Shown here: one piece after another, positions 5,975 to 48,684 of the stretch
How positions within the stretch are numbered: the stretch's first letter is position 1
Layout of the letters: every line of letters begins with the position of its first letter
DNA from: Pseudomonas putida
GTDB taxonomy: Bacteria > Pseudomonadota > Gammaproteobacteria > Pseudomonadales > Pseudomonadaceae
Direction of reading: 5' to 3'
Length of the DNA stretch: 64,000 nucleotides
NCBI RefSeq assembly: GCF_001636055.1
Contig: NZ_CP011789.1
Span: 4,340,001-4,404,000, forward strand
The notes under the pieces: model-generated
What the model was told of the DNA's origin: nothing
Database searches by the model: none
The model's input: the letters and a program-made list of their open reading frames with translations, nothing else
Translations under genes and position numbers: made by a program

Positions 5975-6218
5975 GCTTGGTCACCCTCGGTTAGGGGACG
6001 GATCGGCAAGAACCACGCAAACCTGGAAAAGTCCGAACACAGCGACTAACCACGCCACCTGGATCCTGCAGATTTTCCGGGTACCAGCCCGGAAGCCCCT
6101 GCTGGTCTCATATCTTCATAGGTAATGAGCGCGGGCTTTTTGGGCCCTTGCTCGGGTTTTACCTCGGCGCGGGCTCACCACCCGCGCTTCGGCTTACTGC
6201 TGGTGCAACATTTTTGAA
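5975..6218 (-). promoter_or_regulatory. sdhB-sucA leader region, possible sucA-II type RNA
   Basis: The 244-base gap holds several hairpins on the coding strand, including a perfect GCGCGGG / CCCGCGC stem at 6167-6187 and CCAGC / GCTGG around 6080-6105. A conserved structured RNA called sucA-II is known upstream of sucA in Pseudomonadales, and this is the position where it would lie. I could not align it to the family model, so the assignment rests on position. Confidence 0.35.
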
Positions 6219-28780: not shown

Positions 28781-31700
28781 ATGAAAACCTCGAACACCGA
28801 CGCCCCTGGCACAACGTCCTCGGACAATCCCCTCGCCCGCTTCGAAACTGCGGTCACCCGCTCGCTTTCCAACTTCAAGGACACGCCAGACCCCACGCCG
28901 GCCGGCAACAAACGCTTCGTCGTCGCCGCCGCGGTCGACAACAAGAAGGAAGCGGAAATCGCCGCCGCACTGGCCACTAACGACCCGGAAGTCATCAAGC
29001 ACCTCAACGATCCCAACCTCGCCGATATCGGCAACACCGGCATCCCGCTGGCCAACATCGCCTCGATCACCAAGCTCTCCGACAACGTCCTGGACCTCAA
29101 GACCCGCGACGGCCGCGACATCGTCATCATCAAGCAGATGACCCCCTACCTGTTCGACGGCATGGCCAGCAAGACCGACGCCGTGGACGCCCTGAACAAG
29201 AGCAAGGCCGAGGGCTATCGCATCGCCCAGGCCGGCGATGTGCCACCGGGCATGGACGACTACAAGTTCATCGGCCCTGCCGACGAGGTCGGCCCCGGCC
29301 TGATTCGCTACGAAACCCAGTCCGGCGACAAGGTGATCGTCGCCAACGAGACCAACCATGCCCTGTTCGACCAGGTGAAGTCCGACGGCGAAGCCCTCAC
29401 CCTGATCAACAAGAGCGAGCAGGAAGGCTATCGCCTGGCCAGGGCCGACGAGCCCGCCGATGGCATCAAGGCCATCGGTACGCCCGAGGAACTGGGCCAC
29501 GGCCTGATTCGCTACGAAACCGAAAGCGGCGAGAAGATCATCGTCTCCCAAGGCATCAGCCCGGATCTCTATGCCTCGATGAGCAAGGCGTCCAACGGCA
29601 TCTTCGGTGTCGACGGCGCGGTCGACACCAGCTGGATCGACAACTCCAAGTACGCCAGCGGTGTGCGCGACTGGGACACCATCACCGGCAACAAGGGCGG
29701 CGACAAGCCCACCCAGGCCGAAAAAGACCTGGAGCGTCCGCGCGCCGCATCCAAGATGCTCAGCGATAACTGGGACAAATGGGGCCTTCACGACCGCAAG
29801 ATCGACTTCGCCAACCCACCCAGCGACCTGCCGCCCGAGGCGCAGGCCACGCTCAAGTACCTGGCGGGCAGCCCGAGCCTGATGAACGCCCTGGACAGCG
29901 GCGGCCTGGGCAAGAGCGATGGCGTCATCACCCACGCCGATGTCGACAAGTTCATCAGCCAGCAGAACAAGGACCTGTCGGCTGCCTCCTCTTCCTATTC
30001 GAAGTTCCTCTCGAAAAACCCGGGCGCCTCCGACCTGGCCAAGGAAAACGCCAAGTCCGCAGCCATCGTCATGGCCAACATCTCGCTGGTCAGCAGCGCC
30101 GGCCCGCAGATGGAAGGCGCCAACCAGCGCGCCAACAACGGTAGCCTGACCACCGACAACCTAAACGCGATCAAGTCCGACAGCGGCCTGAGCCCCGAGC
30201 TGACAGGCGCTGCCGGTTACTGGTCCAACCCAGGCATGTGGCACGTGATGGACTCGGCGGGCGACCACCCCGCGACCGCCTCCTCCGACGGCATCGTCCA
30301 GCAGAAGAACATCGGCGCCTGGCTGGAAAACCAGGCGCCGAAGGACGACCACGGCGTGCTGATGATGCTCAGCAACGCCTCGATTCGCGGCTCTCTGGCG
30401 GGCGTGGACACCTCCAAGCTGACCAAGGACGTGCTCGAGCACCCCGAGAACTACGACGGCAAGACCAAGGCCGCGGCCATGCTGGAGATCACTGACGCAC
30501 GTGCGCGCCTGCAGGCCAGCGACAAGGTCGACGGCGACCTGTATGCCGGCATCACCGCCGACAGCCAGTACCACCTCAACCCGACCAAGTCCAAGGTCAT
30601 GAAGCAACTGGACGATGCCATCTCCAAGCTGGGCAACGACGCGGACGTCAAGGCCTACATGGCAGCAAACCAGGGCCCGGGCATGCGCGACATCATCAAC
30701 GCCGACCCGGCGATGAAGAAAGCGCTGCAGCACAGCCAGGACAGCCAGATCAACAGCGGCAACATCATCAACACCGCCCTGGCCACCAAGGACGCCAATG
30801 GCAACCCCTTGTCGCTGCCCGACGCCCTGGCCCTGGCCGGCACCGATGCCACCCTGACCGACCTGGCCCTGGGCGGCGACGGCAACATCGACCTGGCATC
30901 GATCGCCGACAAGTCGGGCAAGTCCGGGGATATCGAGCAGTATTTCCGCGAGCACACCCTCAACGGCAAGGACCTGGAGGACGGCCTGTCCAAGGGCGGC
31001 GACCCGATGACCGTCATCGGCCAGTACGCCTCCAATGCCGCGCTGTTCAAAGAGTTCCTGGGCGACAAGGTGACGCCGCAGGAGGCCTCCGAGGTCGGCC
31101 AGCGCATCAACCAGGCGGTGTCCGATTCGCTGATCGACGGTGCCGACAAGAATACGCTCAAGGATATCTTTGGCGACGGCAACGGCAACTTCGATGAAAA
31201 CAAGGCCAAGGCCATCATCGACAAGGCCATGGCCGACGATCCAGACATGTTCAAGGACTCCAGCGGTGCGCCGATCCGCCCGCAGGATGTGATCTCGATG
31301 CTGCGCTCGGTGTGGGACACCAACCGCCAGGGCGAGAAGATCAGCGACGTCCTGCCCAAGTCGATCGACGGTCTGAAGCTCAATGTCAGCGAGTCCTACA
31401 AGCAAGGCCTGCTGCACATCGGCAGCGCCCTGCTCGCCGGTGGTGTGCTGGCCGCACGTTCCGCCACCGGTGGCAACAGCCCGACCGACAACGCCTCGCG
31501 GGTTTCGGCAGGCATGCAGTTCGCCGGCCTGATCATCGAGGGCGGTACCAAGTACGCCAAGGAAGCCGGTTATGGCATGGTCTGGAAACCCACCCCGGTC
31601 GATCCATCCAAACCCGCGCCGATCGGCGAGTTCCCGACCGGCAACATGGTGCAGAACACCGACGGTATCAACCGCCTGGGCAACCTAGGCAAGGTCATCG

Positions 31701-32098
31701 GCGGTGCGGGCAGCTTCATCGGCGGCGTGCTGGGCCTGATCAGCGGCGTCAACAGCGCCTTCGCCGGTGACAAGGTCGGGGCCGGCTTCTCGCTGACCAC
31801 CGGCGCGCTGGGTACAGGTGCAGCGATCACCTCGATCATCGAAGGCGGTGCGGGGCTGTTTGGCCTGGCCGATGTCGGCGCCATCGCCGGTGCCTTCTCC
31901 GGCGTGTTGGGCTGGGCCACGGCGGGGATCGGGCTGGTGGCAGGGATCGTGCTGCCGATCATCGAAGTGGCCAAGCGCGAGAAGATGCAGGACCAGTTCT
32001 TCGGCGAACTCAAGCCGGTGCTGGACAAGTACGACCTCACCGGCGGACCGATTACCAAGGAGGATCGCGACGAGGAGTACAACTTCGCCTACGGCTGA
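28781..32098 (+). CDS. HrpK/HrpF/NolX-type (type III translocator-like) protein
   Basis: 1105 residues with no cysteine. Residues 107-270 hold two full copies and a third partial copy of a roughly 70-residue unit (core GLIRYETQSGDKVIV; also KSKAEGYRIA and KSEQEGYRLA). An EF-hand-like loop KSDGVITHADVD lies near 378. The C-terminal part has a hydrophobic segment at 876-895 and a Gly/Ala-rich hydrophobic region at 974-1065, as in HrpF/NolX translocators. No signal peptide is seen. No type III apparatus gene is in the window. The family call rests on overall layout, so a repeat-rich exported toxin is the main alternative. Confidence 0.6.
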   Translation: MKTSNTDAPGTTSSDNPLARFETAVTRSLSNFKDTPDPTPAGNKRFVVAAAVDNKKEAEIAAALATNDPEVIKHLNDPNLADIGNTGIPLANIASITKLSDNVLDLKTRDGRDIVIIKQMTPYLFDGMASKTDAVDALNKSKAEGYRIAQAGDVPPGMDDYKFIGPADEVGPGLIRYETQSGDKVIVANETNHALFDQVKSDGEALTLINKSEQEGYRLARADEPADGIKAIGTPEELGHGLIRYETESGEKIIVSQGISPDLYASMSKASNGIFGVDGAVDTSWIDNSKYASGVRDWDTITGNKGGDKPTQAEKDLERPRAASKMLSDNWDKWGLHDRKIDFANPPSDLPPEAQATLKYLAGSPSLMNALDSGGLGKSDGVITHADVDKFISQQNKDLSAASSSYSKFLSKNPGASDLAKENAKSAAIVMANISLVSSAGPQMEGANQRANNGSLTTDNLNAIKSDSGLSPELTGAAGYWSNPGMWHVMDSAGDHPATASSDGIVQQKNIGAWLENQAPKDDHGVLMMLSNASIRGSLAGVDTSKLTKDVLEHPENYDGKTKAAAMLEITDARARLQASDKVDGDLYAGITADSQYHLNPTKSKVMKQLDDAISKLGNDADVKAYMAANQGPGMRDIINADPAMKKALQHSQDSQINSGNIINTALATKDANGNPLSLPDALALAGTDATLTDLALGGDGNIDLASIADKSGKSGDIEQYFREHTLNGKDLEDGLSKGGDPMTVIGQYASNAALFKEFLGDKVTPQEASEVGQRINQAVSDSLIDGADKNTLKDIFGDGNGNFDENKAKAIIDKAMADDPDMFKDSSGAPIRPQDVISMLRSVWDTNRQGEKISDVLPKSIDGLKLNVSESYKQGLLHIGSALLAGGVLAARSATGGNSPTDNASRVSAGMQFAGLIIEGGTKYAKEAGYGMVWKPTPVDPSKPAPIGEFPTGNMVQNTDGINRLGNLGKVIGGAGSFIGGVLGLISGVNSAFAGDKVGAGFSLTTGALGTGAAITSIIEGGAGLFGLADVGAIAGAFSGVLGWATAGIGLVAGIVLPIIEVAKREKMQDQFFGELKPVLDKYDLTGGPITKEDRDEEYNFAYG

Positions 32099-32182: not shown

Positions 32183-32382
32183 AAAGACACCGCGCTCCCT
32201 GGCACGGGCTACGCCCGTGTTCTCGGGACAAACCGGGCCGCCGAACCGCCGCTACCCTCCACTACACCCTCAGAAAATTCCGAATCTCTCCGCCAATACT
32301 TCAGCTTAAGGCCACCTGGGAATTATCCTACGCAGCACGCAGCCGTTTCTCTGTTGTTGAAGATAAGCATCAGGGCTAATTT

Positions 32383-32588
32383 CCCCGGGTCGTCCCTATG
32401 GCGACCGGGGGTGAGAGCCCGGCTTTACTGAAGAGTTGGCGGCACTGCTATGGCAGCAGTGCGTGGGCAGGCTTCTGCCTGGCCGGTTTTTGCTAACTCT
32501 CGCCGGTCTCTCACCCCACGCACCGCTGCCACCCTTGTCCTGTGAGAGGGATGATGAAGGTGGCTACTTTGCTTAATGGGAGTTAGCC
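32383..32588 (+). promoter_or_regulatory. Highly structured RNA leader with a possible switch at the ribosome-binding site
   Basis: Hairpin H1 is CCCCGGGTCG / CGACCGGGG (32383-32410). A closing stem pairs GGTGAGAG and CCGGC (32410-32423) with GCCGG and CTCTCACC (32502-32515), 13 pairs with one mismatch. Inside it GAGTTGGC (32433-32440) pairs with GCTAACTC (32492-32499), and two hairpins follow: GCACTGCT / AGCAGTGC (32442-32462) and CAGGC / GCCTG (32468-32481). GAGTTAGC at 32580-32587, overlapping the ribosome-binding site, is a perfect alternative partner for 32492-32499. The pairing is read directly; a regulatory function is inferred. Confidence 0.6.
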
Positions 32589-32837
32589 ATGAAAAAGATC
32601 GTCCCCGATCCACCCCGCCTCAAACTCGTCAACAACCTCTACTTCTCCATCCATTCCGACCTCATTCCGCCCGACGCCTTGGCTCACGCCAGCGAACTGT
32701 TGCGCGGCGTCAGCGAAACCCTCGACGAACACTGCCGGGCCCTGGCCGGTACTCCTGGCCTGAACATGCTCGCCAACGCAGCGCACGCCGCAGAAACGGC
32801 TCGCGCCTTGATCGAACATGCACTGAGGCGGATGTGA
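32589..32837 (+). CDS. Small Pseudomonas-restricted protein (DUF6124-like)
   Basis: 82 residues, MKKIVPDPPRLKLVNNLYFS, then an all-helical part (PPDALAHASELLRGVSETL ... AAETARALIEHALRRM). The MKKIVPDPP start and helical tail are typical of small orphan families found almost only in Pseudomonas (DUF6124/DUF3077 type). The function is unknown. GGGAG precedes the ATG and lies inside the structured leader. The next gene follows after 13 bases. Confidence 0.7.
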   Translation: MKKIVPDPPRLKLVNNLYFSIHSDLIPPDALAHASELLRGVSETLDEHCRALAGTPGLNMLANAAHAAETARALIEHALRRM

Positions 32838-32850
32838 AAGAGGTTCGCTG

Positions 32851-33090
32851 ATGAATGAAGGCACCACACCCGGCATCGCCACTGCGCTAGGGATTTTCCG
32901 CGTGCAACCCGGCATTCCCGTCGGCCAGGCTTTCGACGAAGTCTCGCTACTACTGGGATGCGTGCGCGACCTGAGCGAAATGGGTGATGAATCAATCACG
33001 CCTGCGGCCATGGTCGCCCTGAGGTATCTGAGCGCCATGGCCAAAGCATTGATGAACGACCTGGAAGTCGCCAGAAATCAGTCGCCTTGA
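32851..33090 (+). CDS. DUF3077-family small protein
   Basis: 79 residues with the DUF3077 pattern FRVQPGIPVGQAFDEVSLLLGCV followed by a second helix-rich part. Function unknown; restricted to Pseudomonas as far as known. AAAGAGG precedes the ATG. It probably forms an operon with the DUF6124-like gene under the same structured leader. Confidence 0.78.
   Translation: MNEGTTPGIATALGIFRVQPGIPVGQAFDEVSLLLGCVRDLSEMGDESITPAAMVALRYLSAMAKALMNDLEVARNQSP

Positions 33091-47664: not shown

Positions 47665-48684
<1,020 letters not shown>

Follow-up and report, generated by a model that had tools for sequence, protein, structure and literature searches.

The window, i.e. the whole stretch of 64,000 nucleotides of Pseudomonas putida DNA that was analysed, carries ahead of two small genes an RNA leader with one strand that can pair either with an upstream partner inside the leader or with the ribosome-binding site (RBS) of the first gene. 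This arrangement raises the question of what kind of regulator the leader encodes. An earlier note, which had recognised the two partners by eye, likened them to the alternative partners in riboswitches and attenuators. The leader is indeed strongly structured (-123.4 kcal/mol, z = -6.56, with 0 of 200 shuffles folding as well), and the helices described in that note are present. The closing stem is formed by GGGGTGAGAGCCCGGC (32408-32423) and GCCGGTCTCTCACCCC (32502-32517) with 15 of 16 positions paired, and corresponds to a1 paired with a' in the nomenclature of C4 RNAs; the inner stem, between GAGTTGGC and GCTAACTC with one G-U pair, corresponds to b1 paired with b'. Further, GCTAACTC is perfectly complementary to GAGTTAGC (32580-32587), a part of b2 that lies over the Shine-Dalgarno sequence, and the match grows to an 11-position run (32492-32502 with 32577-32587) when G-U pairs are allowed. 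Since the upstream and downstream pairings are both real, mutually exclusive alternatives, the latter covering the RBS, the idea of a switch is partly right, and it is the class of the element that has to be revised.

A search of the whole window against Rfam assigns 32446-32536 to the C4 antisense RNA family (RF01695; 73 bits, cut-off 45, E 2.5e-12), and the C4 core reaches 82.8 bits with the covariance model R1, the core itself being part of the R1 alignment. At a relaxed threshold (E <= 1), C4 and the c4-a1b1 module (RF03163 at 32376-32425, with 32.1 bits and hence under its cut-off of 46.7) are the sole Rfam matches in 32300-32700. The architecture agrees with this assignment, as the closing stem encloses two inner hairpins, with b' occupying the second loop and a' the 3' junction. 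Copies of the targets (a1 and b1), recognised by complementarity, lie 5' of C4, and the RBS region of the gene behind it contains a2 and b2, which a' and b' complement. Because of the Rfam match and an order of parts known from phage P1, the proposed switch can be identified with the known alternative-partner pair of the C4 loops. A free-standing riboswitch or attenuator was rejected in view of these sole Rfam matches and of a switching strand that varies from locus to locus. The leader is thus interpreted, with a probability of roughly 0.86, as a chromosomal locus that encodes a C4 antisense RNA together with the targets of that RNA, and from which C4 would be cut and would block the downstream RBS, processing and repression being projected from P1. 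The C4 fold, the upstream a1-b1 decoy/target pair, the downstream a2-b2 pair with b2 over the RBS of ORF1 and the locus-specific complementarity of a' and b' are read directly from the DNA (Table 1).

Table 1. Elements of the C4 locus in the window, with positions counted from its first letter.
Feature	Position	Strand	Basis or remark
Possible promoter (TTGTTG, 17 nt, TAATTT)	32354-32382	+	By eye, low confidence; transcription start near 32389
Upstream hairpin GGTCG...CGACC of c4-a1b1 module	32388-32406	+	Sub-cut-off RF03163 match
a1 target GTGAGAG, in loop of hairpin 32406-32421	32411-32417	+	Complementary to a'
b1 target GAGTTGGC (inner 5' strand of the earlier note)	32433-32440	+	Pairs with b' with one G-U; same order position as P1 b1
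C4 antisense RNA, Rfam model span	32446-32536	+	RF01695
Predicted mature C4, 82 nt, from 5' G of GGC to 3' GCC-ACC, as in a tRNA acceptor end	32452-32533	+	Analogy with P1 misc_RNA 48343-48419
C4 closing stem (32451-32467/32515-32531)	32451-32531	+	Rfam consensus alignment; covariation
Hairpin P2 of C4	32468-32481	+	Rfam consensus alignment
Helix P3 of C4	32482-32486/32503-32507	+	Rfam consensus alignment
b' loop, with b' core GCTAACTC at 32492-32499	32487-32502	+	Rfam alignment; complementary to b2
a' strand CTCTCAC, unpaired in C4 fold	32508-32514	+	Complementary to a1 and a2
a2 target GTGAGAG	32542-32548	+	Complementary to a'
b2 target TGGGAGTTAGC, over Shine-Dalgarno GGAG 32579-32582	32577-32587	+	11-position run with b'
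ORF1, 82 aa, MKKIVPDPP..., presumed controlled gene	32589-32837	+	Two-helix hairpin predicted
ORF2, 79 aa, DUF3077, second gene of unit	32851-33090	+	Two-helix hairpin predicted

The closest known counterpart is the immI region of phages P1 and P7, with which the window shares the fold, the spacing, the order a1-b1-C4-a2-b2-small ORF and the position of b2 over the RBS. In the GenBank record of P1, a1 (48255) and b1 (48269), both annotated as ‘putative’, precede C4 (48343-48419, 77 nt), which is followed by a2 (48423, starting 4 nt after C4), b2 (48452), icd (48470) and then ant1. In P1 as in the window, the predicted mature RNA begins at the GG of the closing stem and ACC follows the stem. 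The two systems differ in location (phage versus chromosomal loci with up to 42 copies per genome) and in cargo (the icd-ant antirepressor versus DUF6124/DUF3077-type genes); at the window locus, an ORF without Pfam match and a DUF3077 gene stand in place of the antirepressor in a prophage that marks P1/P7 immI. The c4-a1b1 module listed by Weinberg et al. in 2010 (PMC2864571) likewise has a1 in a hairpin loop followed by b1, the window match to it being sub-cut-off. Further upstream elements recur as well: a motif ending in GCGA(C/T)CGGG begins 32-34 nt 5' of a1 in 142 of 146 aligned loci, and in all 148 loci folded the sequence just around a1 has a folding energy of -3 kcal/mol or lower. A consensus promoter scan recovered no sigma-70 site. 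Antisense control of antirepressor translation is also attributed to the sar RNA of phage P22 (PMC12197685), which is a separate RNA from the C4 of the window.

By analogy with P1, transcription would start upstream of a1, RNase P would cleave 5' of the closing-stem GG, and a C4 RNA of ~82 nt would be released by a second cleavage. Using a' and b', the freed C4 would bind a2 and b2 of mRNAs of this kind and so block translation of ORF1, and expression of the DUF3077 gene behind it would be lowered by coupling or polarity; in P1, translational coupling and Rho polarity both play a part. Pairing of a1-b1 with a'-b' would be an alternative precursor fold that hides the antisense loops and leaves the RBS free, and the leader could therefore yield either an active mRNA or an active repressor. 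As C4 would arise from the same transcript that it silences, control is likely to be self-limiting and locus-specific, with an early pulse of expression followed by silencing. The processing step is consistent with the C4 ends, since NCC follows the C4 stem in 148 of 148 loci and N is A or G in 141 of them, giving A/G-CC ends of the RNase P type; an RCC motif is reported to be used by RNase P (PMC12710915). The C4 of P1 is described as a 77-nt, RNase P-processed, trans-acting RNA (PMC5320573, PMC12197685, PMC8546580).

Conservation of the fold was assessed on 27 C4 cores, and the covariance check proposed in the earlier note came out in favour of a retained structure: 94.1% of the cells are paired, 16 of the 27 pairs are changed on both sides and 0 of 500 shuffles score as high. 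Helix P3 by itself shows little covariation (two-sided change in 1 of 5 pairs). A covariance model built from the 27 cores, which come from three same-genus genomes and exclude P1, recovers the P1 C4 with 47.3 bits (E 4.7e-8). When the target stretch is shuffled 20000 times, 13 shuffles equal the window locus in b'-b2 complementarity and 425 equal it in a'-a2 complementarity. Among 77 loci of named genomes (the C4-bearing subset of the best 80 of at least 123 ORF1 relatives), b' follows its own b2, with a mean score of 19.48 against 12.81 for the b2 of other loci and 13.95 for the best of 2000 permutations. The earlier note had expected the complement GAGTTAGC near the start codon to be conserved; taken literally it is not, yet most homologues carry the complement of their own b' at this place. 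Covariation together with the match of b' to its own b2 indicates selection.

The source genome (5.81 Mb, one contig) harbours 11 C4 loci, all above the cut-off. At least 275 of 298 same-genus genomes have a C4 match and 23 have none, the counts being lower bounds with at most 14 candidates scored per genome. A deeper search of 39 same-genus genomes (84 candidates scored per genome) found matches in 35, of which 34 have matches above the cut-off, with 0 to 42 copies, a median of 12 and at least 10 copies in 25 of the 39 (median and last count tallied by hand); five picked genomes hold 42, 32, 29, 26 and 10 matches, three of these matches being under the cut-off. At the level of the order, C4 was found in 36 of 244 genomes, and outside the genus of the source genome in 1-6 copies, except for one same-family genome with 14. 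With such copy numbers, a functionless dispersed repeat or a decaying prophage remnant has to be considered, the more so as one copy lies on a viral contig and one locus of genome G019 carries a Bro-N gene; nevertheless, two-sided stem changes and the b'/own b2 match point to selection, the ORFs are intact and the element is present in nearly all same-genus genomes searched, which makes this explanation scarcely credible. The viral copy (contig L256, IMGVR_UViG_2517487005_000001) is the only ORF1 relative confirmed in a viral-contig scan (1 of 22 stretches); its C4 (749-838, 82.2 bits) lies just 5' of the MKKIVPDPP start, with phage-like ORFs, judged by eye, on the opposite strand. Neither ORF1 nor ORF2 was matched in the INPHARED phage genomes by tblastn at E <= 1e-5. 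In G019, four tandem C4 loci with near-identical proteins and differing b' loops occupy ~6.4 kb (C1:1820921-1827285).

With respect to the cargo, the proposed two-gene unit, ORF1 followed by ORF2 on the forward strand, stands, and its description as Pseudomonas-only is nearly right, since the best 80 of at least 123 ORF1 relatives comprise 78 from Pseudomonas, one from Pantoea and one from a Paucimonas MAG. A C4 lies upstream of the gene on the same strand in 77 of these 80; the exceptions are L178, L206 and L217, the last two with the gene at a contig edge. ORF1 gave no match in Pfam (E <= 0.001) or in NCBIfam, PHROG or PADLOC (E <= 1), and its homologue P0067 (65% identical) bears a precomputed DUF6124 label (PF19619), ORF1 itself being without a DUF6124 match. 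ORF2 matches DUF3077 and PHROGs of unknown function, and has no PADLOC or NCBIfam match at E <= 1. The profiles of the two proteins are related (hhalign 96.1%, E 3.3e-9), structure prediction gives a two-helix hairpin for each (mean pLDDT 85.6 for ORF1 and 90.0 for ORF2), and a fold search of the ORF2 model against the PDB returned no match at E <= 0.001.

In five genomes, 98 of 119 DUF6124 matches sit within 700 nt downstream of a same-strand C4. The converse expectation, that the leader always precedes DUF6124/DUF3077 genes, fails, as a DUF6124 match follows within 700 nt at 94 of 140 C4 loci of the five genomes. In the source genome only 1 of 11 C4s is followed by a DUF6124 match because ORF1 and its kin score under the Pfam model, and 6 of 7 DUF3077 matches, compared by hand, lie behind a C4. 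A feature common to most first ORFs is an N-terminus that fits P-x-P-P, seen at 57 of 71 C4 loci (9/11 in the source genome, 35/42 in G019 and 13/18 in G237). Nine further first ORFs compared with Pfam comprise three DUF3077 proteins (L081, L095, L127), one Bro-N protein (L082) and five without a match. Genes without a C4 were represented by 15 of the 21 DUF6124 matches lacking a C4 within 700 nt upstream (14 stand-alone, one tandem copy) plus one DUF3077 gene. Apart from a weak match of 17.9 bits in L271, which overlaps the gene itself, no C4 appears at E <= 1 in the 14 stand-alone regions (L257, L258, L260-L271), and none of their ORFs of at least 60 aa begins with a P-x-P-P peptide. At L082 of G019 (442-954, +), C4 precedes the Bro-N gene (PF02498, E 3.3e-12), a possible link to a phage arrangement. 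Only 22 and 25 codons are left of the first ORF at L013 and L015 of the source genome, where it overlaps the start of the DUF3077-like gene in the manner of a leader peptide; the overlap of 4 nt between icd and ant1 of P1 may be compared.

The specificity of a' and b' as the address of a C4 was compared for own and foreign targets in all 11 loci of the source genome, all 42 of G019 and 18 of the 32 of G237. Specificity was scored by ungapped complementary runs with b' trimmed to the loop. RNA duplex energies were set aside as a measure because the stretches took in flanking stem (own b' target best in 7/11, 10/42 and 6/18, respectively). By the joint a'+b' score, the own target is best for 11/11, 36/42 and 17/18 loci, or for 11, 34 and 16 when ties are not counted, and foreign targets as good as the own target occupy 0/110, 12/1722 and 3/306 cells; a better foreign target exists for 6/42 loci in G019 and 1/18 in G237. 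The b' loop alone selects its own downstream region for 10/11, 29/42 and 10/18 C4s, and a' alone for 6/11, 12/42 and 10/18, the low specificity of a' being due to a' types that many loci have in common. The picture is less sharp when the 77 loci of different species are pooled (own target best for 37/77 by b' and 48/77 by the joint score; a better foreign target for 29/77); in this set, addresses recur between species where the loci are closely related. At some loci (e.g. L098, L107, L133, L134, L136, L184, L186), the scan gave no convincing own b2. These results bear on the proposal, made for C4-like RNAs of Acinetobacter baumannii (PMC5320573), that C4 RNAs are re-aimed at unrelated host mRNAs with the linked gene being incidental. 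For the Pseudomonas loci such re-aiming appears unlikely, as the own linked target is the best of the 11 C4-linked targets for every C4 of the source genome and the b2 regions co-diverge with b' in recent paralogues.

Complementary sequence by itself does not distinguish a trans-acting RNA from pairing inside a single transcript. When 75 nt of leader plus C4 were folded for 148 loci, the a1:a' fold was the minimum free energy structure at 60 loci, as against 88 with the C4 stem, these energies being for single strands without kinetics or proteins. The window leader prefers the a1:a' fold (-86.9 kcal/mol for the whole versus -83.8 for C4 and the upstream part folded apart, a difference of 3.1), and among the 11 loci of the source genome L010, L014 and L019 favour the a1:a' fold and the other eight the C4 stem. 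Such near-equal energies make a bistable precursor plausible at some loci, the window included. The same closeness of folds, with a1:a' as the minimum in 60 of 148 leaders including that of the window, would also suit a purely cis-acting riboswitch or attenuator, in which a1b1:a'b' and a'b':a2b2 interchange within one molecule through a ligand or the speed of transcription and no free antisense RNA is formed. Against this, the 77 loci hold 64 distinct b' loops with no conserved ligand core in the switching strand, and a strand that differs at most loci suits an antisense address rather than such a core; moreover, the C4 fold and its tRNA-like NCC ends are kept as for an excised RNA, and the P1 C4 is described as a processed RNA of 77 nt acting in trans (PMC12197685, PMC5320573). 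A cis switch is hence judged quite improbable, and the C4 antisense reading is retained.

Divergence after duplication was followed in 27 same-genome pairs whose first ORFs are at least 80% identical; the pairs, which are not independent, were drawn from the 55 loci where the first ORF has the P-x-P-P peptide. In these pairs, the b' loops (mean identity 0.52) and the RBS regions (0.57) are less alike than the ORF DNA (0.87) or the two halves of the C4 frame (0.81 and 0.84); among loci whose proteins are under 60% identical, 596 pairs have b' loops with a mean identity of 0.45. At the extreme, L083 and L086 have ORFs that are 98% identical and b' loops that are 45% identical. The b2 regions diverge along with b' in recent paralogues. 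The C4 frame is a fair internal control for the divergence of b', and gene conversion of the ORFs may also contribute. As a tentative extension, most Pseudomonas genomes could be running up to ~40 self-silencing loci with private addresses, in which selection quickly re-addresses duplicates (b' and b2 changing together, protein and frame near-constant) in the way that temperate phages diverge in their immunity specificities. Such loci might be independent immunity- or addiction-type units, each silenced by its own C4 and switched on when entering a cell that lacks the address or when the RNA is lost.

A related possibility is a module resembling type I toxin-antitoxin systems, in which C4 would act as antitoxin RNA against a small protein that is harmful, and the many addresses would let each module work independently. 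Small genes in many copies, largely non-overlapping addresses and a linked antisense RNA that covers the RBS of its own unit are what such a module would be expected to display, and icd, which holds the equivalent position in P1, is annotated as an inhibitor of cell division. However, neither PADLOC nor NCBIfam gives a match at E <= 1, ORF2 resembles only PHROGs of unknown function and the predicted protein fold is a plain two-helix hairpin; a toxin role is thus considered rather unlikely. From an evolved, furfural-tolerant P. putida, a base insertion in the DUF3077 pseudogene PP_RS01475 has been described (PMC9630843).

The C4 RNA family is already known, and Weinberg et al. (2010), cited in PMC5320573, had predicted that it occurs in Pseudomonadales. 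The new findings are that targets are linked to the RNA, that addresses within a genome are largely non-overlapping and diverge fast, and that the cargo is of the DUF6124/DUF3077 type. A literature search, confined to open-licence papers, found C4 RNA nowhere tied to DUF3077 or DUF6124 in Pseudomonas and no description of a Pseudomonas C4 set. C4 has been known as the RNA of one phage immunity system and from chromosomal copies in Acinetobacter. In A. baumannii AB5075, many Group 1 C4-like sRNAs are chromosomal, expressed and apparently processed at GG (PMC5320573). They resemble the Pseudomonas loci in being multi-copy and differ in that the account in PMC5320573 identifies no targets for them, while the Pseudomonas C4s mostly have linked a2 and b2 of their own and a downstream gene. 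Since these C4s adjoin their targets, the question of what chromosomal C4 RNAs regulate becomes directly testable. Furthermore, the 11 to 42 largely non-overlapping antisense-target pairs per genome provide a natural data set for the divergence of RNA-RNA specificity after duplication, and DUF6124 and DUF3077 gain a regulatory context.

As regards the surroundings, the C4 locus of the window is flanked by an HrpK1-type gene and an M20 peptidase gene. The former encodes a protein of 1105 aa (28781-32098, +) with a translocator domain of the HrpK1/HrpF type (PF16937), and ends 347 bases 5' of the C4 model span. Elsewhere in the window, a sucA-II leader RNA (5978-6192, -) and a sucC leader RNA (179-247, -) are matched by Rfam above their cut-offs.
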